In this document: in pieces, positions 12,210-36,560 of the stretch | Numbering within the stretch: position 1 is the stretch's first letter | How the letters are laid out: each line of letters opens with the position of its first letter | From: Candidatus Bathyarchaeota archaeon | Lineage (GTDB): Archaea; Thermoproteota; Bathyarchaeia; Bathyarchaeales; Bathycorpusculaceae | Assembly: GCA_018396705.1 (NCBI GenBank) | Contig: JAGTQZ010000002.1 | Location: forward strand, 62,001-126,000 | Length of the DNA stretch: 64,000 nucleotides | Direction: 5' to 3' | Notes under the pieces: model-generated | The model's input: only the letters and a program-made list of their open reading frames with translations | Database searches by the model: none | What the model was told of the DNA's origin: nothing | Position numbers and translations under genes: made by a program

Positions 12210-12338
12210 TCACCTCAGCATTATCGAAATATTAAAGGGAGTTGCAAAATTTTCATTAATCCAGAAAACGTACAAGCTGAATTTTAGCAATTGGCTAAGG
12301 CCGTCAGAAATGAAAGCAGTCGCCCCGTATGAACGCAT
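12210..12338 (-). CDS. Possible 42-aa ORF between his promoter and hisG
   Basis: An ATG-initiated ORF (MRSYGATAFISDGLSQ...) fills the space up to 9 bp before hisG; its TGA lies inside the hisG ribosome site. It has no histidine codon, is rich in Phe, Leu and Ile in its second half, and resembles nothing I recognise. It runs in a different frame from the overlapping leader ORF at 12346, so at most one is likely to be the main product. It may be accidental. Confidence 0.25.
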   Translation of the reverse strand: MRSYGATAFISDGLSQLLKFSLYVFWINENFATPFNISIMLR

Positions 12339-12346
12339 TCCCTCAT
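12284..12346 (-). CDS. Putative his operon leader peptide
   Basis: A 20-codon ORF (MRECVHTGRL...) starting at ATG 12346, about 10 nt after the predicted transcription start, with GGTG upstream as a weak ribosome site. It has a single His codon (CAT) at position 6. Its first codons ATG AGG GAA TGC GTT match the start of a small ORF before ilvB. A segment inside it, CCTTAGC (12300-12294), can pair with GCTGAGG (12219-12213) at the hisG ribosome site. It is probably regulatory, not a working protein. Confidence 0.5.
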   Translation of the reverse strand: MRECVHTGRLLSFLTALANC

Positions 12347-12354
12347 TTTGCACC

Positions 12355-17281: not shown

Positions 17282-17301
17282 ACATTGAGGATGGAGGCAA
17301 A

Positions 17302-17352
17302 ATGAGGGATAGCGTTCTCTGGAGGACCAACTTTATTTGCAAAATGTACTGA
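17302..17352 (+). CDS. Putative ilv operon leader peptide
   Basis: A 16-codon ORF (MRDSVLWRTNFICKMY) with a strong ribosome site GGAGG at 17293-17297, 4 nt before the ATG. The ribosome site is better than those of many real genes here, though the product is too short for a normal protein. Codon 6 is Leu (CTC). The stretch GGCAAAATGAGGGA and the following AGCGTTC match the his leader start almost base for base. It ends about 100 bp before ilvB. Confidence 0.55.
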   Translation: MRDSVLWRTNFICKMY

Positions 17353-26094: not shown

Positions 26095-26104
26095 ATATAA
26101 ATAT
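26095..26104 (+). promoter_or_regulatory. Aromatic operon TATA box
   Basis: ATATAAATAT (26095-26104), preceded by a purine-rich BRE-like AAAG, predicts transcription start near 26125, only about 7 nt before the leader ORF ATG. The start of the operon is therefore the leader peptide and not aspartate kinase. Confidence 0.65.
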
Positions 26105-26131
26105 TGGAAGGTTTCTGTTTATTGGTCTGAT

Positions 26132-26209
26132 ATGAACAATCCAATAGCCACGATCAACACCCAATTCGGGTTTTATTTTAGTGGCTATTGGTACATATTT
26201 AGCTATTAG
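26132..26209 (+). CDS. Aromatic-amino-acid leader peptide
   Basis: A 25-codon ORF beginning MNNPIATINTQ and ending FGFYFSGYWYIFSY, followed by TAG. Nine of the last 14 codons are Phe (4), Tyr (4) or Trp (1), all three end products of the operon that follows. It starts just after the predicted transcription start. The RNA contains a perfect 11-bp inverted repeat inside the ORF, CCAATAGCCAC (26141-26151) with GTGGCTATTGG (26181-26191), and a second stem right after the stop codon. By analogy with bacterial trp and phe leaders the codon run should sense charged aromatic tRNAs. No role as a working protein is likely. Confidence 0.85.
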   Translation: MNNPIATINTQFGFYFSGYWYIFSY

Positions 26210-26260
26210 GGAGAAACCGCGACCGCTTCTGTTTCGGTTTCGGTTCTCTCCTTTTGGAGG
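26210..26260 (+). promoter_or_regulatory. Leader hairpin and ribosome-site switch
   Basis: Directly after the leader stop, GGAGA-AACCG (26210-26219) can pair with CGGTT-C-TCTCC (26241-26251, one bulge), with a further ACCG/CGGT stem inside. The same TCTCC can instead pair across TTTT with GGAGG (26256-26260), the ribosome site of aspartate kinase. The two pairings exclude each other, so a ribosome at the leader stop codon could change access to the site. Confidence 0.6.
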
Positions 26261-26268
26261 TTTATGGT

Positions 26269-27564
26269 GTGAGGCTGGAACAAGGTAATGTTTCTGGTTC
26301 CATTTTTGTTGTAAAGTTTGGAGGAAGCAGCTTAGCTGATTGCGAAAAAATAGCTAACGCTGCCAGAGCCGTCATAAAAGAGTTGAACAAAGGAGCAAGA
26401 GTTGTTGTAGTGGTTTCTGCTATGGGTAAAACCACCGACTTATTGCTTGAAACTGTGAAGAAGGCTACCAACTGCGAAAAGACAGCATGGGGCAGAGACG
26501 TTGACGACGTACTAGCTATGGGAGAAAGGACTAGCGCGAGGATTTTCTCGGCAACCCTTAAGGCCAATGGTGTAAAATGTCGCTATTTTGATCCAGCGGA
26601 CCCAGATTGGCCAATAATCACCAACGATGTGCCAATGAACGCTGATCCCATCTTAGAAGTGTGCAAGGAACGTGTTGTCAAACATGTCCTACCTCTGCTT
26701 GATCAAAGCGTCGTTGTAGTTGTTCCCGGCTTTGTTGGGAAGACGTTAGATGGCAAAATTACAACTATGGGGAGAGGTGGAAGCGACATAACAGCGCTTG
26801 TCTTGGCTTGGGCGCTTAAGGCAAAGCAAGTTATCCTCGTTACTGATGTTGACGGCATAATGACAGCTGACCCTAAACTTGTCAAGTCTGCAAGAAAAGT
26901 GCCTGAAATAGATGTTGATTCACTAATTGGGCTTGCAAGCTCCTCCCACAAGTTTCTGCAGAGAAAAGCATTAAAATACAAGGAGGAATGGATGGACGTT
27001 AAAATCATAAACCATAACCACTGCGACTTGGCTGCTGAAGGCACTGTCATTAAAGGTGCCCTTTCAAAAAATGTCGTTAGCATGAGTTTTCCAGAAGCCG
27101 TAGCCTCCGTAACCGTTGTTGGAAAAGCGCTTTCCCAGTCTCATGAAGTCTTACAGCAAGCGATCCAGAAAATAAAGAGTGCAGAGGTTCCTCTTCTTGG
27201 AATTTCAGCCAACTATGATTCGCTTATTCTCTATGTTCCAGAGGGTATGCTTGGCAGAGTCCTTGAGCCGCTTCATTCGATTGTTTACGATTATCCGGAG
27301 GCCATAGCCATAGCTGTGAGAAAAAACCTTGCCCTGCTTAAAATCAAAACGGCAGAGCTTGAAGAAACCCCGGGAGTAATTGTTAACTTGGCTAAAGCTT
27401 TAGATTCAAAAGGCATTAACATTTACGGATTGTTCACAGTGGCCTCTGGAATACATGTTTTTGTTGATATGGCGGATGCTGATGAAGCCTTTGCGGCTAT
27501 TAAGAAATCTTTGGAAGAGGATTTTGAAAAATCCTTAGAAATCAAAGTTATGGAGGCAAACTAG
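26269..27564 (+). CDS. lysC: Aspartate kinase
   Basis: Monofunctional aspartokinase, 431 aa from GTG 26269 (8 nt after GGAGG). [40 protein letters not shown] near residue 160 and [15 protein letters not shown] near 195 form the kinase domain; two ACT domains follow from about residue 280 ([39 protein letters not shown]). It makes aspartyl phosphate, leading to aspartate semialdehyde. Heading the aromatic operon makes sense because semialdehyde is a substrate of the DKFP route. Its product also serves threonine synthesis. The ACT ligand is unknown. Confidence 0.93.
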
Positions 27565-27566
27565 AA

Positions 27567-28400
27567 TTGGTAAGTGGAAAAAGTAGACGAATGCGGAGAA
27601 TACTTGGCGAAGATGGCAAAACTGTGATTGTTCCCATGGACCACGGGGTTACATGCGGCCCTATTAACGGACTTTTAGACATGCAAAACACCATTGACAA
27701 GCTTATTGCTGGCGGCGCAGACGCCGTTGTTCTACATAAAGGTATAGCGAAAAACGTTGACACAAAAAGGCTTGGACTCATTATACATGTTTCTGCAAGC
27801 ACAAAGGTAGGGCCTGACGCAAATTGGAAAGTGGGGGTCTGCAGCGTCGAAGAGGCCATTCGGCTGGGATGTGACGCCGTTTCGGTTCATGTGAACGTGG
27901 GTGCGGTTCATGAGCCTGACATGCTGGTGGAGCTGGGCAAAATAGCGGACGAATGTGACGCATGGGGGATTCCTCTGCTTGCCATGATGTACCCGCGAGG
28001 AGCGAAAATAAAAAATGAGCATGACCCAGAGGCTGTTGCCCACGCAGCTAGGCTTGGTGCAGAACTAGGCGCAGATATAATAAAGACCAATTATACAGGA
28101 GATATTGAGTCTTTCAGAAAAGTTGTTGAGGGGTGTCCTGTCCCGGTGATAATCGCTGGCGGGCCAAAAGTCGACACGGCTCAAAGTTTGCTGGAAATGG
28201 TTTATGATGCAGTTAAAGCCGGCTGCGCAGGGGTATCTATAGGTCGAAACGTTTTCCAACATGAAGATCCAACAGCTATGACTAAAGCTCTTGTTGGCAT
28301 AGTGCATGAGGGATGGAGCATAGAGGATGCGGTGATGTTTTTAAAGGCAGAATGTTGTCCTAAATCCGATGTCAAGGCTAAAGTGGGGGTCTACTCTTGA
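27567..28400 (+). CDS. aroA': ADTH (DKFP-pathway) synthase, class I aldolase-like
   Basis: 277 aa, TTG start with GGAGG at 27552-27556. It resembles archaeal class I fructose-bisphosphate aldolase: [15 protein letters not shown] near residue 24, and [15 protein letters not shown] near 170 with the Schiff-base lysine. In methanogens this family (MJ0400) condenses a DKFP-derived unit with aspartate semialdehyde to a 2-amino-3,7-dideoxy sugar acid. Immediate pairing with the dehydroquinate synthase II gene (4 bp overlap) supports this over a glycolytic role. Confidence 0.88.
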
Positions 28401-29476
28401 AAGAGTTTTGGCTGAAAATAGATAAAACTGTTCCGCAAAATGTCATGGAACATCTGCTCGATTCTGCAAGTCAAACGTGTGATGTCGTGTATGTTGAGGA
28501 TGAGCAGAAATTAAACGACGTTAAGAAAAAGAAGTTAGGGGTAAAGGTTGCCGCGAAGATTCGCGAGTGCGACATTCAAGTCCTTGAACCCCTTATGTCG
28601 GAAGAGTTAGCAAAGTTGAAGACTGCTGGCAAACCAGTGGCGGTTCGGGTAACGGTTAAGGGCAAGGAGGACGAAGTGGCTGCTGTCAAAGCTGCAAATC
28701 TTTCAGCCGATTACATTATTATCAACTGTTTGGACTGGAAAATCATACCATTAGAGAACCTTATAGCTAACATAAGAGGAACAAGCAAGCTTTTGGCAGA
28801 GGTTTCATCATTGGAAGAGGCCAAACTAGCTCTTGAAACTCTTGAACTGGGAGCCGACGGAGTAGTCTTAAAAACGGCAGATTCAAATGAGGTTATAAAG
28901 GTGGCGTATCTAGTCAAAAAGCAGCTACCCCAGTTTAAACTTGTACCGGTAAAAATAGTTGGCGTTAAACAGATAGGAACCGGAGCCAGAGTGTGCGTTG
29001 ACACGTGCGATTTAATGAAGGAGGGTGAGGGACTCCTTCTCGGATGTCAATCTGCATGTTTATTCCTAGTGGAAGCGGAGGTTCACGAAAATCCCTTTGT
29101 TCAACCTAGACCTTTCAGGGTGAATGCGGGTCCAGTGTCGCTGTACGCGCTGTGTGCTCCAGATAAGACAAGATATCTTTCAGAACTCAAAGCCGGAGAC
29201 GAGTTAATGATCGTGGACAGAAATGGCAAAGCTAGGTTCACGAATATTGGCAGAGTCAAAATTGAGTGGCGTCCTCTTCTACTAATTGAGGCTGAATGGG
29301 AGGGTAAAAACTTCAAGACGATAGTTCAAAATGCGGAAACGATAAGGCTTGTAACAAAGGATGACTCTACGTCAGTTACGAAGCTTAAACCCGGAGACGA
29401 GGTTTTAGCGTACATTTCAGAAGGTGGAAGGCACTTCGGAACCCTTGTTAAAGAGGAGAAGGTTGTAGAGCTTTGA
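28397..29476 (+). CDS. aroB': 3-Dehydroquinate synthase II
   Basis: Archaeal type II dehydroquinate synthase (MJ1249 family), 359 aa, TTG start overlapping the previous gene. [19 protein letters not shown] near residue 110 and [15 protein letters not shown] near 150 are conserved family blocks; [21 protein letters not shown] and [15 protein letters not shown] near 195-250 form the second half. It oxidatively deaminates and cyclises the ADTH product to 3-dehydroquinate with NAD. It is unrelated to bacterial AroB. Confidence 0.93.
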
Positions 29477-30156
29477 CCGTTAGAATATGCGTTTCCATAA
29501 TGCCTAAAAGCTTTAATGACGCGTTGAAGCTGATCCAAAAAGCGGAAGAGCATAAGGCAAACTTTATCGAGATAAGATTAGACTGTCTCGGCGGATTTAA
29601 AGAGTTGAAAGACGTCGCTGGATGTGCAAAAACACCGCTAATCGCAACTATTAGAACACCTAACTGTGGCGGAAATTTTTTGGGGAAGGATGAAGAACGC
29701 AGAAAAATTCTTTACAATGCTGCTTCAAACGGGTTTAAATACGTGGACATAGAACTTGACACACCTTGGCTGAGCAGCTTTGTTAAGGAACTGCATGCTT
29801 TAGGAGTTAAACCAATACTGTCTTTTCACGACTTTGAAGAAACGCCGGAAATCACAAAGTTACAGCAAATTCTTAAAAACGAAATTGCAGTAGGCGCAGA
29901 CATCTGCAAAATAGTGACAATGGCGCGAAGTCTACAAGACAACTTAACTTTACTACGTTTCCTAAACGAGGAGGGTGGAAAAGCTAAGATTGTCTGCTTC
30001 GCTATGGGGGCTCTGGGTAAACCCTCAAGACTTTTGTCGCCGATTTTTGGAGGATACTTCACAATCGCTGCCTTGGAACACGGCGGGGAAACTGCTTCAG
30101 GGCAAATGACAATTCAAGAAATGAAGGCGGCGTATAAGGCGTTAGGAGCCATGTAA
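29473..30156 (+). CDS. aroD: 3-Dehydroquinate dehydratase, type I
   Basis: Type I barrel enzyme, 227 aa, TTG start (TTGA overlap). FIEIRLDCL near residue 31, LSFHDFEETPE near 117 (catalytic His) and DICKIVTMARS near 145 (Schiff-base Lys) are all present, with GALGKPSRLLSPIFGGYFTIA near 180 closing the site. It dehydrates dehydroquinate to dehydroshikimate. It directly abuts aroE. Confidence 0.94.
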   Translation: MTVRICVSIMPKSFNDALKLIQKAEEHKANFIEIRLDCLGGFKELKDVAGCAKTPLIATIRTPNCGGNFLGKDEERRKILYNAASNGFKYVDIELDTPWLSSFVKELHALGVKPILSFHDFEETPEITKLQQILKNEIAVGADICKIVTMARSLQDNLTLLRFLNEEGGKAKIVCFAMGALGKPSRLLSPIFGGYFTIAALEHGGETASGQMTIQEMKAAYKALGAM

Positions 30157-31026
30157 ATGGAAATTTCTGGAAAAACCAAAGTGTTCTGTGTAATCGGCGA
30201 CCCAATTGATCATTCGCTAAGCCCCGTTATGCATAATGCTGCTTTTAGATTTTTGAAGCTTGACGCTGTTTATGTTGCCTTTAAGGTGAAAAAGGAAAGG
30301 CTTGAAGATGCTGTGAATGGTGTGCGCGGGTTCAGCATTTATGGAATGAATGTTACGATGCCCCATAAAACTGCCATCACCAGTTACTTGGACGAAATCG
30401 ACCCTGCGGCAAAATTCGTTGGAGCCGTTAACACGGTGCTTAATGCGAACGGGAAGCTTGTAGGCTTCAATACCGACGGCGTCGGCGCAATAAAAGCCTT
30501 AAAGGAGAATGGAGTGGAGCCTAAAGGTAAAAAGTTCCTACTTTTAGGCGCTGGAGGCGCCGGAAGAGCAATAGCTTTCCAACTTGCACAAGAGGCAGAC
30601 GAGCTTAGAATTCTAAACAGAGACGGAGAGAAGGCTAAAAGGTTGGCGGAATCGCTTCAAAGAAAGTTTAACAAAAAAATTGTCGGAAACAGCCTTTCAA
30701 CAAACCTCCTTAAAGAATGGCTTAAAAACGTAGATGTGCTCATTAACGCCACTTCCGTTGGCATGTACCCTAACAGTGGCCAAACCATCGTCGAGAGGGA
30801 TATGCTAAATCCGAAGCTTACAGTAATGGACATAGTTTATAGTCCTATTGAAACGAAGCTATTAAAAGAAGCTAAATCTGTTGGCGCCAAAATTATAAAT
30901 GGCATTGAAATGCTCGTCTTTCAAGGTGCTGCTTCATTTGAAATCTGGTGGAATCAGCCTGCTCCTGTAAACGTTATGAGGGAAGCTATTTTGAAAAAAC
31001 TCTGCGGGGTGGAAATCAAAATTTGA
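30157..31026 (+). CDS. aroE: Shikimate dehydrogenase
   Basis: AroE, 289 aa, ATG start with no gap after aroD. SLSPVMHNAAF near residue 18 and NVTMPHKTAI near 65 (catalytic Lys) bind shikimate; AVNTVLNANGKLVGFNTDG near 92 and GAGGAGRAIAFQL near 132 (NADP fold) follow. It reduces dehydroshikimate. The stop overlaps the TTG start of the kinase gene. Confidence 0.95.
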   Translation: MEISGKTKVFCVIGDPIDHSLSPVMHNAAFRFLKLDAVYVAFKVKKERLEDAVNGVRGFSIYGMNVTMPHKTAITSYLDEIDPAAKFVGAVNTVLNANGKLVGFNTDGVGAIKALKENGVEPKGKKFLLLGAGGAGRAIAFQLAQEADELRILNRDGEKAKRLAESLQRKFNKKIVGNSLSTNLLKEWLKNVDVLINATSVGMYPNSGQTIVERDMLNPKLTVMDIVYSPIETKLLKEAKSVGAKIINGIEMLVFQGAASFEIWWNQPAPVNVMREAILKKLCGVEIKI

Positions 31027-31910
31027 GTGGAAAAACTACTGCAACTGCTATAAGCTATGGTGGAGCAACCATAATAAACGCTATCGCAACTGGCAAAGGA
31101 GCAGCCTTTGGAGTAAAATTATGGACAAAAGCAGAGGTTAAGTTGACAGATAGTCCGCCAATTATAAAGGGTGAAATTGTTTCAGACCCTGCCGAGAACA
31201 CTATACTTATAGAGAAAACTGTGAATAAGATTCTGAGATATTTTGGGCTTGCCGACAAATTCGGGGCAGAGGTTAAAACATGGTCCAACATACCCATTGC
31301 CCGCGGCCTAAAGAGCAGCAGCGCTGCTGCAAACGCCATAGCTCTCGCCACAGTGGCTGCGCTAGGGAAAGAGGTTGATGACTTGACAGTAGTAAATTTG
31401 GGTGTTGAAGGAGCTTTAGAAGCAAAAGTCACAGTAACAGGTGCTTTCGACGACGCTTGTGCATCCTATTTTGGCGGAATAGTCATAACAGACAACTTAA
31501 AGAGGAAGATAATTAAACGCCTTGAAGCGCCTGAAAACCTCACCGTCTTGTTTCACATACCTAAAACTAAAGTTTACACAAGCAGTGTTAATGTTCAGAA
31601 AACGCGGGCCATAGCCCCCTTGGTCAAGATAGCATATAAAGAAGCTTTAAAGGGTAACTTTTGGCAAGCTTTAACGCTTAATGGGCTGATATACTCTTCG
31701 GCTCTAGGATATGATTCTTCAATTGTTCTGGATGCTTTAATGGCTGGAGCAACTGCCGCCGGATTATGCGGTAAAGGACCAGCCGTAACAATTGTTGTCG
31801 CCGAAGAAAAGATTGATGGTGTACGGGAAGCCTTGATGCAGTACGAGGGAGAAATAATAGAGACGCAAATAAATCATGAAAAAGCGCAAGTTTTGGGCGT
31901 TTCTCCATGA
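31023..31910 (+). CDS. aroK: Shikimate kinase, archaeal GHMP type
   Basis: GHMP-superfamily shikimate kinase, 295 aa, not related to the bacterial P-loop kinase. IARGLKSSSAAANAIALATVAALG near residue 97 is the ATP loop and GLCGKGPAVTIVV near 250 the C-terminal GHMP motif; FDDACASYFGG lies between. I set the start at TTG 31023, in the TTGA overlap used repeatedly in this operon; the frame stays open upstream into aroE but that part has no family likeness. Confidence 0.92.
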   Translation: MSGKTTATAISYGGATIINAIATGKGAAFGVKLWTKAEVKLTDSPPIIKGEIVSDPAENTILIEKTVNKILRYFGLADKFGAEVKTWSNIPIARGLKSSSAAANAIALATVAALGKEVDDLTVVNLGVEGALEAKVTVTGAFDDACASYFGGIVITDNLKRKIIKRLEAPENLTVLFHIPKTKVYTSSVNVQKTRAIAPLVKIAYKEALKGNFWQALTLNGLIYSSALGYDSSIVLDALMAGATAAGLCGKGPAVTIVVAEEKIDGVREALMQYEGEIIETQINHEKAQVLGVSP

Positions 31911-33205
31911 CAAGAGTTGTCATTAAACCAGCTGAAAACTTAAGGGGGGAAGTTAACGCCCCCCCCTCTAAATCTTATACGCATAGAATGCTTATTGCCG
32001 CACTTTTATCAAGTGGCAAAACAACTATAGAAAAGCCTCTAATTTCCGACGACACGCTAGCAACTTTAGAGGCTGTAAAAGCCTTCGGAGCCGAAGTAAA
32101 ACAAAAAGGCGAACTCTGGGAAGTGAATGGACAACCACCGCCTCTAAAGACGCCCGCAGGACCTGTGAGTTGCCGGGAGTCGGGAACCACCTTACGCTTT
32201 ATGATACCAGTTTCCGCCCTTGCCCTTGGAAACACAACATTTGTGATGGGACAATCGCTGAGTAGAAGACCCATAGAACCGCTGCTTCAAAGCCTAAAAC
32301 AGCTTGGAGTGAATACCCGATATGATGCCGAAAATCCATCCGTCATAATAGTTCACGGCGGAGGAATCGACGGTGGAGAAACAACCTTAAGAGGCGACAT
32401 AAGCTCCCAGTTCATATCTGGTCTTCTGTTTGCGTGCCCCCACGCGAAAAATGACACTAAAATAAGCCTTACAAAACCGGTTGAATCAAAAGGCTATATT
32501 GAAATGACTCTGGATGTACTGCGTAAACACTCCGTAAAAGTTAGAATTTCAGAAGATTTCACTCAAATACAAGTTCCAAGCGGGCAAATATACCTGCCTT
32601 TTGAGCATAAGGTTCCTGGAGATTTTTCTTCCGCGGCTTATCTTCTGGCCGCCGCCGCCATAACATCATCAAAAATAAGAATTCACAATCTTGATTATAC
32701 GTCAAAGCAGGGAGATAAAGCGATTTTAGAAATACTTAGGCATGCAGGTTTAGAAGTTAAAATCGGTGAAGGGTTTGTCGAAGTTAGTGGTGAACTTCGC
32801 GACGCAATAAATGTTGATGCGGGAGATATCCCAGACTTGGTGCCGGCGTGCACAGCAATTGCATGTTATACAAGCGGAGTGTCTCAAATATGCAATGCTG
32901 GAAGGTTAAGGTACAAGGAATCTGACAGGCTTGCCGCTCTTTACACAGAGTTTAGAAAAATGGGGGCTCACATAATCATGGAGGAGAGCGGCCTAATAAT
33001 AAAGGGGCCGTGTAAACTTCATGGCGCTGTAATAGATCCTCATAATGATCATAGAATAGCGATGGCTTGCGCCGCCGCGGCTTTAGGCGCTGAGGGTGAC
33101 ACAGTAATAATAAACGCTGAATGCGTGGGAAAATCTTATCCCAACTTTTTCAGAGACTTAACCGTGTTAGGAGCGAATATAGTTGACGGCGAACTCGATT
33201 GGTAA
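31907..33205 (+). CDS. aroA: EPSP synthase
   Basis: 3-Phosphoshikimate 1-carboxyvinyltransferase, 432 aa. PPSKSYTHRMLIAALLSSG at residues 19-37, ESGTTLRFMIPVSAL near 87, SSQFISGLLFACP near 165, and RYKESDRLAAL near 338 carry the substrate- and PEP-binding residues. It overlaps the kinase by 4 bp and aroC by 23 bp. Confidence 0.95.
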   Translation: MTRVVIKPAENLRGEVNAPPSKSYTHRMLIAALLSSGKTTIEKPLISDDTLATLEAVKAFGAEVKQKGELWEVNGQPPPLKTPAGPVSCRESGTTLRFMIPVSALALGNTTFVMGQSLSRRPIEPLLQSLKQLGVNTRYDAENPSVIIVHGGGIDGGETTLRGDISSQFISGLLFACPHAKNDTKISLTKPVESKGYIEMTLDVLRKHSVKVRISEDFTQIQVPSGQIYLPFEHKVPGDFSSAAYLLAAAAITSSKIRIHNLDYTSKQGDKAILEILRHAGLEVKIGEGFVEVSGELRDAINVDAGDIPDLVPACTAIACYTSGVSQICNAGRLRYKESDRLAALYTEFRKMGAHIIMEESGLIIKGPCKLHGAVIDPHNDHRIAMACAAAALGAEGDTVIINAECVGKSYPNFFRDLTVLGANIVDGELDW

Positions 33206-34289
33206 AGCCTTTGTTGTAACATCTTTCGGAGAAAGCCACGGCAAATGCGTGGGCACAGTTATAGATGGTTGCCCAGCAGGGCTTCCACTTTCCGAACTAG
33301 ACGTGCAAGCAGAACTGGATAAGAGGATACCGCCCAAACAGGAAATAACGTCGGGAAGAATCGAAAAAGATGTCGTGGAAATTCTATCCGGAGTATTTGA
33401 AGGATACACTACTGGGGCGCCTATCTGTATTCTGGTATGGAACAAGGAAGCTGTCCCCTCAGAATATGACGCTATAAAAGATTTGCCAAGACCTGGACAC
33501 GCCGACTACCCCGCCCACATTAAATATGATGGATTCAACGACTACAGAGGCGGCGGAAGGTTCTCTGGAAGAATTACTGTATCATTTGTTATGGCTGGAG
33601 CTGTTGCAAAGAAATTACTGCGAATGTTCGGGGTTGAAGTGTTGGCGTACACCAAAGCAATAGGCGATATTGAAATGAAAGAAACACCAACGCTGGAGCA
33701 GATTAGAGAAGGAACATATAAAAACTCGGTTAGATGCCCAGATCCAATGTACGCTGAATCAATGGAGAAAGCCATAATCGAGGCAAGAAGGGAAGGAGAA
33801 AGTCTCGGAGGCATAGTGGAATGTATTGCATTAAATGTTCCGGCAGGTGTCGGCGAGCCAATAGTTGACGCGTTAGACGCTGATATAGCAAAGGCCATCT
33901 TCGTTGTGCCCGCCGTTAAGGGAGTGGAGTTTGGTGCAGGATTTAAAGCAGCCACACTGAAGGGATCCGAAAACAACGATGCATATACGATAAGAAACGG
34001 CAAAGTAGTAACCTTAACAAACAACGCAGGCGGGGTGCTTGGAGGTCTATCCAATGGTATGCCGATAGTGGTTAGAGCGGCTTTTAAGCCAACACCGTCG
34101 ATAGCGAAACTACAGAAAACCATAAATTTGTCAACGTTCGAGGAGGCCACTGTGCAAATAAAGGGCAGGCATGACCCGTGCATAGTGCCAAAAGCTGTTC
34201 CGGTAATAGAAGCTGTGGTTGCAATAACATTAACAGACCTCATGATAAGGGCTGGAATAATCCCGAAAGTTCTAGGAAGGAAGAGGTAA
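33183..34289 (+). CDS. aroC: Chorismate synthase
   Basis: FMN-dependent chorismate synthase, 368 aa, TTG start inside the aroA 3' end. SFGESHGKCVGTVIDGCPAG near residue 14, GGGRFSGRITVSFVMAGAVAK near 122, and RHDPCIVPKAVPVIEA near 335 are conserved. It forms chorismate, the branch point for Phe, Tyr and Trp. No trp genes are in this window. Confidence 0.95.
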   Translation: MTANSIGKAFVVTSFGESHGKCVGTVIDGCPAGLPLSELDVQAELDKRIPPKQEITSGRIEKDVVEILSGVFEGYTTGAPICILVWNKEAVPSEYDAIKDLPRPGHADYPAHIKYDGFNDYRGGGRFSGRITVSFVMAGAVAKKLLRMFGVEVLAYTKAIGDIEMKETPTLEQIREGTYKNSVRCPDPMYAESMEKAIIEARREGESLGGIVECIALNVPAGVGEPIVDALDADIAKAIFVVPAVKGVEFGAGFKAATLKGSENNDAYTIRNGKVVTLTNNAGGVLGGLSNGMPIVVRAAFKPTPSIAKLQKTINLSTFEEATVQIKGRHDPCIVPKAVPVIEAVVAITLTDLMIRAGIIPKVLGRKR

Positions 34290-34291
34290 CC

Positions 34292-34558
34292 TTGGAAAAA
34301 ATAGCCGCATTACGGCAGAAAATAGACGAAATAGACGAGAAAATTCTCCTACTGCTAAAAGAAAGAATTGAAGTTTCCAAGAAAATAGGCGAAATAAAAC
34401 AGAAACAAGGAATCCCCGTCAGAGACCCCAAAAGGGAAGAGGAAAAATACAAGCACATATCAGAGAAAGCCGCGGAGTTTGGACTTGACGCTGAAGATGT
34501 TAAAAATCTTTTTCAAAAAATAATCGACATAAGCATTCGCATACAAAAGTCTGAATAA
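34292..34558 (+). CDS. aroQ: Chorismate mutase, AroQ type
   Basis: An 88-residue all-helical AroQ mutase. RQKIDEIDEKILLLLKERIEVSKKIGEIKQKQGIPVRDP carries the conserved Arg and Lys residues, and PKREEEKYKHI follows. TTG 34292 with GAGG upstream fits the length and start of the family; the frame is open further upstream in aroC but without similarity. It converts chorismate to prephenate for pheA and tyrA. Confidence 0.9.
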   Translation: MEKIAALRQKIDEIDEKILLLLKERIEVSKKIGEIKQKQGIPVRDPKREEEKYKHISEKAAEFGLDAEDVKNLFQKIIDISIRIQKSE

Positions 34559-34617
34559 ACTCTTTCTTATGTAAAATCTTAAATATTCGTTATACATTCC
34601 AAACTGGACTGGTTGAA

Positions 34618-35691
34618 ATGTTATACGAAATAAACGAGAAAGTAATAAGACTTGAAAAAGAAGGAAAGAAAATTATAAAATTTAACCTTGGAGACCCCGA
34701 TCAACAAACTTCAATGGAGATTATTGAGGCTGCTTTTGAATCAATGAAAAAAGGTAAAACAAAATATGCCTCCGCCGCCGGAGAGAAAGAATTGAGAGAA
34801 ACTCTAGCTGAGATCCATGGTGTTAAAGCGGACAACATTGTGATAACTCCGGGTTCCAAGTGGGCGATTTTCGCTGTAATGTATCTATTATTTGAAAAAG
34901 GCGGCAACGTGATAATCCCGAGTCCACATTGGACAGCATATGACTTAGCAGCCAAAAGCTTAGGTGCTGATGTGAAGCTTATAAAAACTAAGTTTGAGTC
35001 AAATTGGGAAGTGAAAGCTGAAGATCTAGAGGCGCTTATTGATGAGAAAACAAAGTTGATCATACTTAACAATCCTAACAATCCCACAAGCAAAGTAATG
35101 GCTGAAAAAGTTGTAAAGAGAATAGTGGACATAGCTAATAGTAAAGGTGTAAAAATTCTGTCAGACGAAGTTTATGCAGACATAAGTTTCGTCAAAACCA
35201 AAAGCCTTCTGGATTTTGGAGGCGAACCCATAATAGTTAAGAGTTTCTCTAAAACGTTTGCCATGACTGGATGGAGGATAGGCTACTTAATCGCGGATAA
35301 AACGCTTGTAGACAAAATTATAAAACTTAATCAAATAACGTTGACAAATGTCCCCGTTTTTATACAAGATGCGGCTATGAAGGCGCTGGAGCTTAGACAT
35401 GAAATTGCGTCAAGGCTACGAGATGAGTACCGGAAAAGGGCGGATTTAGCTTGTAAAATATTTTCGGGAACAAAATTGAAGTTTACAAAGCCCGATGCAC
35501 CCTTCTATATATTCCCAAAACTTGACGGATTGGATTCTGAAAGATTTTCTTTTGACCTTTTGGATAAAGGAGTTGCAGTAACTCCAGGAACATCATTTGG
35601 CGATTATAAAGAACACTTTAGAATATCCTTAACAGCACCGGACGATGAAATTGAGACAGGCCTTAAGATAATCGCTGAGGCTTTTAAATGA
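34618..35691 (+). CDS. Class I aminotransferase (aspartate/aromatic), short N-terminus
   Basis: Fold-type I PLP aminotransferase, 357 aa. NNPNNPTSKV near residue 142, SDEVYADISFV near 182 and SFSKTFAMTGWRIGYL near 211 (PLP lysine) are present, and FRISLTAPDDEIE carries the substrate Arg. Position between chorismate mutase and tyrA suggests it makes Phe and Tyr from their keto acids. Compared with relatives it lacks about 20-25 N-terminal residues. A TATA-like TTAAATATTC (about 34578-34587) predicts a start just before the ATG, so it may have its own promoter. Confidence 0.85.
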   Translation: MLYEINEKVIRLEKEGKKIIKFNLGDPDQQTSMEIIEAAFESMKKGKTKYASAAGEKELRETLAEIHGVKADNIVITPGSKWAIFAVMYLLFEKGGNVIIPSPHWTAYDLAAKSLGADVKLIKTKFESNWEVKAEDLEALIDEKTKLIILNNPNNPTSKVMAEKVVKRIVDIANSKGVKILSDEVYADISFVKTKSLLDFGGEPIIVKSFSKTFAMTGWRIGYLIADKTLVDKIIKLNQITLTNVPVFIQDAAMKALELRHEIASRLRDEYRKRADLACKIFSGTKLKFTKPDAPFYIFPKLDGLDSERFSFDLLDKGVAVTPGTSFGDYKEHFRISLTAPDDEIETGLKIIAEAFK

Positions 35692-36560
35692 AAATAGCGA
35701 TAATAGGCGCCGGAAGAATGGGTAAATGGTTTGCTAAATTCTTTCTAGACCAAGGTTTTACCGTTATAGTTTCAGACAAGGACTCTGAGAAACTAAAAAG
35801 AATACGGGAAGAACTAAACGTCGAAACGGCAGACAATGTAAAAGCTGTGGAAAGTGCAGACCGTATATTCATATGTGTACCCATCGAAAACTTCGAAAAA
35901 GTGATAGAAGAGGTACATGCGCACATCCACTCTGGACAAGAGATTATGGACATATGCTCTGTTAAGGAAAACCCGGTAAACATAATGCATAGATATATTA
36001 AGAATGCTGTCTCACTTGGCACCCATCCAATGTTTGGTCCAGGCGCCCGAAGTATAAAAAACCAGAATTTCATTTTTACACCTACAAACGCTGAGGAAGA
36101 GGCTTTAGCGAAAAATTTTGGAGCATGGCTGGAAAGTAAAGGTGCCAAAGTTTTCTTTATGACTCCACGGGAACATGACAAGCTCATGTCAGTTGTAATA
36201 GGGTTCCCCTATTTTTTAAGCTGCGTTGTCTGCGATACAATATTAAGTCATGGACAGTTTGCAAAGACGAAAGAAATTTCTGGAGTAAGCTACAAGCTAC
36301 TGTTAACAATAATTGAAGCCATGACTTCGGAACAAACAGAGCTTGCAGTAAGTATACAAACGGGGATTTCAGAAATGGACAAGCTTGGAGAACTTTTCTT
36401 GGATAAAACGAAAGAATGGCTGGAAATATTAAAACAAAAAGATAAAACTGCGTTTATCAAAAAAGTGGAGCTGCTGAAAAGCAAACTGTCCAAGGCAGAT
36501 CCGCAGTTTTTCAAAGCTTATGAGTCCATGTATAGAATGCTTGAGGCTCTTGAAAACTGA
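35688..36560 (+). CDS. tyrA: Prephenate dehydrogenase
   Basis: TyrA-type NAD(P)-dependent dehydrogenase, 290 aa. IIGAGRMGKWFAKFF opens the Rossmann fold, SLGTHPMFGPGARSIKNQNF near residue 105 is the prephenate/catalytic His stretch, and REHDKLMSVVIGFPYFLS near 165 follows. The C-terminal 100 residues are helical, without an ACT domain. It overlaps the aminotransferase by 4 bp and ends the aromatic operon. Confidence 0.88.
   Translation: MKIAIIGAGRMGKWFAKFFLDQGFTVIVSDKDSEKLKRIREELNVETADNVKAVESADRIFICVPIENFEKVIEEVHAHIHSGQEIMDICSVKENPVNIMHRYIKNAVSLGTHPMFGPGARSIKNQNFIFTPTNAEEEALAKNFGAWLESKGAKVFFMTPREHDKLMSVVIGFPYFLSCVVCDTILSHGQFAKTKEISGVSYKLLLTIIEAMTSEQTELAVSIQTGISEMDKLGELFLDKTKEWLEILKQKDKTAFIKKVELLKSKLSKADPQFFKAYESMYRMLEALEN

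Follow-up and report, generated by a model that had tools for sequence, protein, structure and literature searches.

The aromatic amino acid operon of this Candidatus Bathyarchaeota genome is preceded by a short open reading frame (ORF) that very probably encodes a translated regulatory peptide, making expression of a Phe/Tyr/chorismate operon dependent on Phe- and Tyr-tRNA charging through ribosome-mediated attenuation; the step that would turn the operon on or off is inferred. Computational analysis of the 64,000-nucleotide stretch (the window) and of its relatives established the ORF, its conserved run of aromatic codons, a fixed geometry, three RNA pairings (a:b, c:d, and a:c) and an association exclusive to this operon. 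The features involved are the following.

26096..26103, + strand: TATA box TATAAATA, preceded by a purine-rich BRE-like sequence
26132..26209, + strand: leader ORF with the aromatic cluster in its last 14 codons (evidence from translation, shuffles, and relatives)
26141..26151, + strand: segment a, 5' arm of hairpin P1, CCAATAGCCAC; 11 bp, 100% complementary to segment b
26181..26191, + strand: segment b, 3' arm of P1, GTGGCTATTGG; aromatic-cluster codons S-G-Y-W
26208..26225, + strand: segment c, 5' arm of hairpin P2; begins inside the stop codon
26235..26253, + strand: segment d, 3' arm of P2; pairs with c
26252..26255, + strand: UUUU tract from P2 to the Shine-Dalgarno sequence; termination-like here, not conserved
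26256..26260, + strand: Shine-Dalgarno sequence GGAGG of the aspartate kinase (AK) gene
26269..27564, + strand: AK gene, which opens the operon; GTG start, 59 nt past the leader stop
27567..36560, + strand: remaining operon genes, DKFP/ADH synthase to tyrA; identified by NCBIfam except tyrA, gene order kept in relatives

The leader ORF has an ATG start and 25 codons (translation MNNPIATINTQFGFYFSGYWYIFSY*), nine of the last 14 being Phe, Tyr, or Trp codons. Translation and the position of the TATA box confirm the original prediction of such an ORF just behind the expected transcription start: the center of TATAAATA is 32.5 nt 5' of the leader ATG and archaeal TATA-to-start spacing is approximately 26-27 nt, so transcription is predicted to begin about 2-8 nt before the ORF (approximately 26124-26130). 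Most relatives have a TATA-like box 30-48 nt 5' of the leader start, according to a simple scan in which a few rows are clearly misassigned. In most f1 genomes (L002-L051), GGTTCGAAGC is located exactly at the predicted transcription start; it pairs with AGCTTCGA (leader codons S-F-D), and the palindromic TTCGAA within it could alternatively be a DNA operator. A candidate pairing of GGTTTCT (26110-26116) with AGAAACC (26213-26219) was dropped, its 5' partner being upstream of the predicted transcription start. In aromatic content the leader ORF ranks first among the 1259 short ORFs of the whole window, and nine or more aromatic codons were reached by only one of 3000 local dinucleotide shuffles; taken alone, these figures are suggestive.

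Eleven co-oriented genes, a Phe/Tyr/chorismate operon, follow the leader. Ten were checked with NCBIfam (AK, ADH/DKFP-type synthase, DHQ synthase II, aroD, aroE, archaeal shikimate kinase, aroA, aroC, archaeal chorismate mutase, and an aminotransferase); the eleventh (35688-36560) is prephenate dehydrogenase (tyrA), identified from its translation and weak tblastn matches to counterparts. For AK, the GTG at 26269 is a more likely start than a TTG at 26254. The closest named records to the AK are from isolates SKYB16 (76% identical) and DGJ8_bin_44_34 (74%), both Candidatus Bathyarchaeota. The gene count originally given for the operon stands; the accompanying statement that it makes all three aromatic amino acids or their precursors needs narrowing. 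No trp gene is among the eleven, so the products are Phe, Tyr, and chorismate and not Trp itself; trpE of the same genome is on another contig.

Whole-genome searches at the family, order, class, and phylum levels, followed by extraction of upstream DNA, yielded 78 leader ORFs. Within the order an aromatic-rich leader ORF precedes every AK locus with enough upstream sequence (73 of 73; 72 by automatic scan and L076, whose stretch is anchored differently, by reading), and a comparable ORF is present at none of 75 control loci (trpE, hisG, and ilvB) from the same order. The ORF thus recurs before the AK operon of related genomes with synonymous and Phe/Tyr changes, as had been anticipated. All 52 AK-bearing genomes of the window's family have the leader, 46 recognized by a covariance model and six by reading. 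This model (R1), built on the commonest leader form, matches 46 of the 91 family genomes, with a single match in each, adjacent to AK in all but one fragmented genome, where the match is on a separate contig; among R1 matches in the family, the association with this operon is exclusive. Leaders were also identified in four further families of Bathyarchaeia (f12, with NPYYYYYYYCFF*, and f13, f14, and f19) and in other classes (L114, L125-L127, and L128). Those of other families have diverged past nucleotide recognition, their sequence differing almost completely with the aromatic codons retained.

Leaders of the f32 relatives (L132-L134) are weaker and differently laid out, and they were excluded from the composition, P2, TATA, AK-start, and pairing statistics; L132 was included in the extended partner-swap test only. 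These leaders end in ..GSFSSMFQYY*, with the stop just 22-24 nt 5' of AK, and the ORF contains a CCTCCT with two alternative partners, an AGGAGG within the same ORF and the Shine-Dalgarno sequence of AK; they are possibly a different, sequestration-type switch.

Phe, Tyr, and Trp codons make up 56% of the last 14 codons of the 78 leader ORFs, versus 5% of the upstream part; by residue, the last 14 codons are 26% Phe, 28% Tyr, and 1.4% Trp. The scarcity of Trp in relatives points to a Phe/Tyr signal, consistent with an operon lacking trp genes. Judged by codon content, it is Phe and Tyr that would be sensed, and the original suggestion that the mix of all three aromatics fits control of a common pathway is amended accordingly. 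The N-terminus of the peptide varies freely among relatives and its length ranges from 12 to 44 codons. Spacing is tighter: the last aromatic codon is 0-2 codons from the stop in all 78 leaders, and the leader stop is 44-72 nt (median 57.5) from the AK start in relatives.

The ORF looks translated, an inference made without expression data. Start codons are ATG (71), TTG (six), and GTG (one), and ATG and TTG interchange at the same position in f5. Gaps inside the ORF are 3, 6, 9, or 15 nt long, whereas gap lengths beyond the stop are not divisible by three. Among the nearest relatives the aromatic codons underwent 16 synonymous changes and 14 exchanges among Phe, Tyr, and Trp versus 26 losses or gains; random single changes at these codons would be expected to give a kept:lost ratio of 2:7.

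The leader RNA of the window folds better than 200 of 200 shuffles (z -3.9). P2 (26208-26253) spans the region from the leader stop codon to two bases 5' of the Shine-Dalgarno sequence, and in 75 of 76 relatives its start is offset by -3 to +4 nt from the stop-codon end; its sequence is wholly different between families, with the hairpin always present. Covariation inside f1 and f4 was uninformative because the base of P2 is almost invariant there, and an alignment-free partner-swap test across families (own versus swapped segments in 28 divergent representatives) was used instead. Own segments gave the better pairing in three combinations, P1 (a:b, z -6.4), P2 (c:d, z -9.8), and a:c (z -5.6), an outcome unchanged by four added representatives from outside the class. 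The control combinations A:D, B:C, D:SD, A:SD, and B:SD (SD, Shine-Dalgarno sequence) were not significant in the 28 representatives; B:D was weakly so (z -2.5), as expected given that b resembles c, both matching a. The a:c pairing reaches 14 bp in L083 (-29.5 kcal/mol), is long in f34 (L125) and weak in f1b, and has no support in the G000-like group to which the window belongs (z -0.08).

Masking by a ribosome was modeled on these RNAs. In f1a the c:d pairs number 12.7 in the free leader, 12.6 with the ribosome on the first aromatic codon, 12.3 on the middle one, 3.8 on the last, and 0.8 at the stop, so that a ribosome on the last codons or the stop abolishes P2. At equilibrium, P2 persists in most sequences when the ribosome stalls at a first or middle aromatic codon, and it is outcompeted by a:c almost only in L083; early stalling would therefore need kinetic control, acting during RNA synthesis. 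Accessibility of the Shine-Dalgarno sequence changes little under masking, in a direction inconsistent across groups.

The proposed mechanism is as follows. With Phe and Tyr plentiful, the ribosome would pass the aromatic cluster and exit at the stop, whereupon P2 would fold between the leader stop and the AK ribosome-binding site and expression would be low. With Phe or Tyr short, the ribosome would dwell on the aromatic codons; a stall on the last of them would cover the 5' arm of P2 directly, and a stall further upstream would cover segment b, freeing a to pair with c. Neither route would leave a P2, and the operon would be expressed. P2 as the OFF state and starvation as the ON state are inferences; no other direction would be sensible for a biosynthetic operon. 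As the output step, P2 may act on initiation of AK translation (favored where the U-tract is absent) or on transcription; because P2 constantly fills the gap from the leader stop to the ribosome-binding site, the favored target is AK translation or coupling. Stalling and the response to uncharged tRNA are likewise inferred, as no RNA-seq or ribosome profiling data are available.

The original proposal of attenuation by aromatic tRNA charging is supported for Phe and Tyr by the conserved leader and its geometry, and a terminator-type attenuator is not established, the U-tract being missing in most relatives. It remains possible, if rather unlikely, that P2 is an intrinsic terminator and that a stalled ribosome favors a:c as anti-terminator, as in bacterial trp and phe leaders. 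The mutually exclusive a:c pairing, backed by the swap test and so long in L083, would fit this arrangement, as would the TTTT or TTTTT behind P2 in G000-like, f5, and f12 leaders; a U-tract 3' of P2 is confined to these and some others. However, a T-run of five behind P2 is absent from most f1a, f1b, f3, and f4 leaders (in f1b, from the entire gap between stop and AK), and a terminator would not need to lie constantly a few nucleotides 5' of the Shine-Dalgarno sequence. A further point against a terminator is that intrinsic termination in archaea is held to depend on a T-run and not on a hairpin. Because the terminator is not conserved, we do not claim membership in the transcription-attenuator family. 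Sequestration of the Shine-Dalgarno sequence, with the 3' arm of P2 (CUCC) alternating between the 5' arm and the AK GGAGG, is improbable: CUCUCC-UUUU-GGAGG in the window and similar sequences in f5 and f3 would permit it there, but as a general rule it is rejected by the swap test (d:SD z +0.4, own no better than swapped; C:SD z -1.6) and by the G-rich P2 3' arm of f1a and f4, which is unable to pair with the Shine-Dalgarno sequence.

We give still less credence to the peptide itself acting, as a nascent-chain arrest peptide or a small aromatic-rich membrane protein. Its composition is hydrophobic and f1 has a conserved F-Y-Y-rich C-terminus, but across families, and over the whole range of lengths, residue order is not conserved beyond aromatic identity, with Phe and Tyr interchanging; the leader alignment contains no conserved peptide sequence of the TnaC/ErmCL type, and occurrence solely ahead of this operon also argues against arrest. 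As for a chance aromatic-rich ORF, the 5' region is AT-rich and TTT and TAT codons arise easily in it; such an origin is scarcely credible against the shuffles and is refuted by the conservation (all AK loci of the order, no controls). On this comparative evidence it is certain that the leader ORF is not due to chance, and control by the translation of Phe and Tyr codons remains the preferred explanation.

Relatives with the operon and without an aromatic-rich ORF were the original criterion of refutation. There is none among the order's AK loci with enough upstream sequence; outside the order, an aromatic run is missing before the AK gene or operon in f10 (13 loci), f15 (seven loci), and f18 (four loci) (operon content was verified for f10 and f15), yet these carry leaders with Phe and/or Tyr codons. 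A highly conserved MGGHLYWH leader (Tyr-Trp) is present in 12 of the 12 f10 loci with enough sequence, and f15 and f18 leaders have the form (G)DxVF GDxVY, Phe then Tyr. By their pattern these short putative leaders belong to a second class, still presenting Phe and/or Tyr codons; it was also found in other operons (trpE, hisG, and ilvB), which were sampled through family searches.

AK loci: second-class leaders in L081, L084, L085, L086, L088, L089 (f15), L096-L099 (f18), and L090-L111 (f10)
trpE: second-class leaders among loci L145-L174, at -85 to -105
hisG: second-class leaders in L194-L210, at about -300 to -345

The trpE leader, M[RG][DNY]x[VIL]-W, is present in 24 of 30 sampled genomes, with Trp as codon 6 in 24 of 24; the hisG leader, [ML]R[DN]x[VI]-H, is present in 17 of 30, with His as codon 6 in 17 of 17. 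The common pattern is start codon-(R/G)-(D/N/Y)-x-(V/I/L)-X, where X is the cognate codon. Codon 6 looks like a specifier codon, which might act through an early stall, a frameshift, or a T-box-like process; the mechanism is unknown. The trpE frame of L153 seems to overlap the leader, in the +1 frame. In the window, the leader of the his operon is MRECV-H (codon 6 His) and that of the ilvB operon MRDSV-L (codon 6 Leu). Both ORFs start with a perfect 21-mer, GCAAAATGAGGGAWWGCGTTC, shared by the his (12331-12351, - strand) and ilvB (17297-17317, + strand) leaders, with a chance expectation of 0.01 in 64 kb. No His- or Leu-rich leaders were found in the window, and Trp-rich ORFs approximately 100-170 nt upstream of trpE were rejected because they proved to be the end of the preceding gene read out of frame. 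The second class strengthens the main claim, because cognate-codon leaders would then be habitual in these archaea.

Leader-peptide attenuation is a textbook mechanism of bacteria. We know of no previous archaeal case, as the original prediction also held, and none was found in the literature searched, which excluded subscription journals and leaves absence unproven. The leader is best read, by analogy, as a functional counterpart of the bacterial trp, phe, and his attenuators and the first such system known in an archaeon. It shares with bacterial attenuators (E. coli trpL, pheL, and hisL; actinobacterial trp/ilv, PMC1262725) a short ORF rich in codons for the operon's products, a position directly upstream of the cognate operon, and, as far as the predicted pairings go, alternative RNA hairpins. 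It differs in its archaeal host, in aromatic codons that are in the 3' arm of P1, abutting the stop, and not in the 5' arm, in a putative anti-structure a:c in place of 2:3, in the unconserved terminator U-tract, and in a P2 always adjoining the first gene's ribosome-binding site. As in erm/cat-type translation attenuators, a stalled leader ribosome would hold open a hairpin beside the next gene's ribosome-binding site; unlike them, the signal would be the codon supply of two amino acids and not an antibiotic, there is no conserved arrest peptide, and the Shine-Dalgarno sequence is not, as a rule, inside the hairpin. Like a T-box riboswitch the leader would sense tRNA charging (inferred in this case), but through a translated ORF with many sensor codons and not through one specifier codon; the window contains no Rfam match, T-box included, at gathering score.

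In archaea, the DNA-binding regulators TrpY (Methanothermobacter) and Tar/TK0271 (Thermococcus) are known to control aro, tyr-phe, and trp operons (PMC6737238). The two proteins thus also govern aromatic operons, but by protein-DNA control at the promoter. Almost all Crenarchaeota lack both TrpY and Tar, and "a third regulator or mechanism" has been suggested (PMC6737238); the leader, if it works as proposed, would supply this missing regulator of aromatic synthesis. The sequence evidence strongly suggests that archaea, too, sense amino acid shortage by a slowed ribosome. A broader proposal, which could equally prove right or wrong, is that Thermoproteota archaea independently evolved ribosome-mediated attenuation as general amino acid sensing, with aromatic-run leaders and a stop-rooted hairpin, needing no terminator, at Phe/Tyr operons, and with one specifier codon as the sixth codon (M[RG][DNY]x[VIL]-W or -H) at operons for Trp and His and, in other lineages, at the aro operon. 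The leader provides a sequence-level assay transferable to a tractable archaeal host. If the reading is correct, archaea would couple tRNA charging to biosynthetic gene expression, implying transcription-translation or translation-translation coupling in these uncultured organisms.
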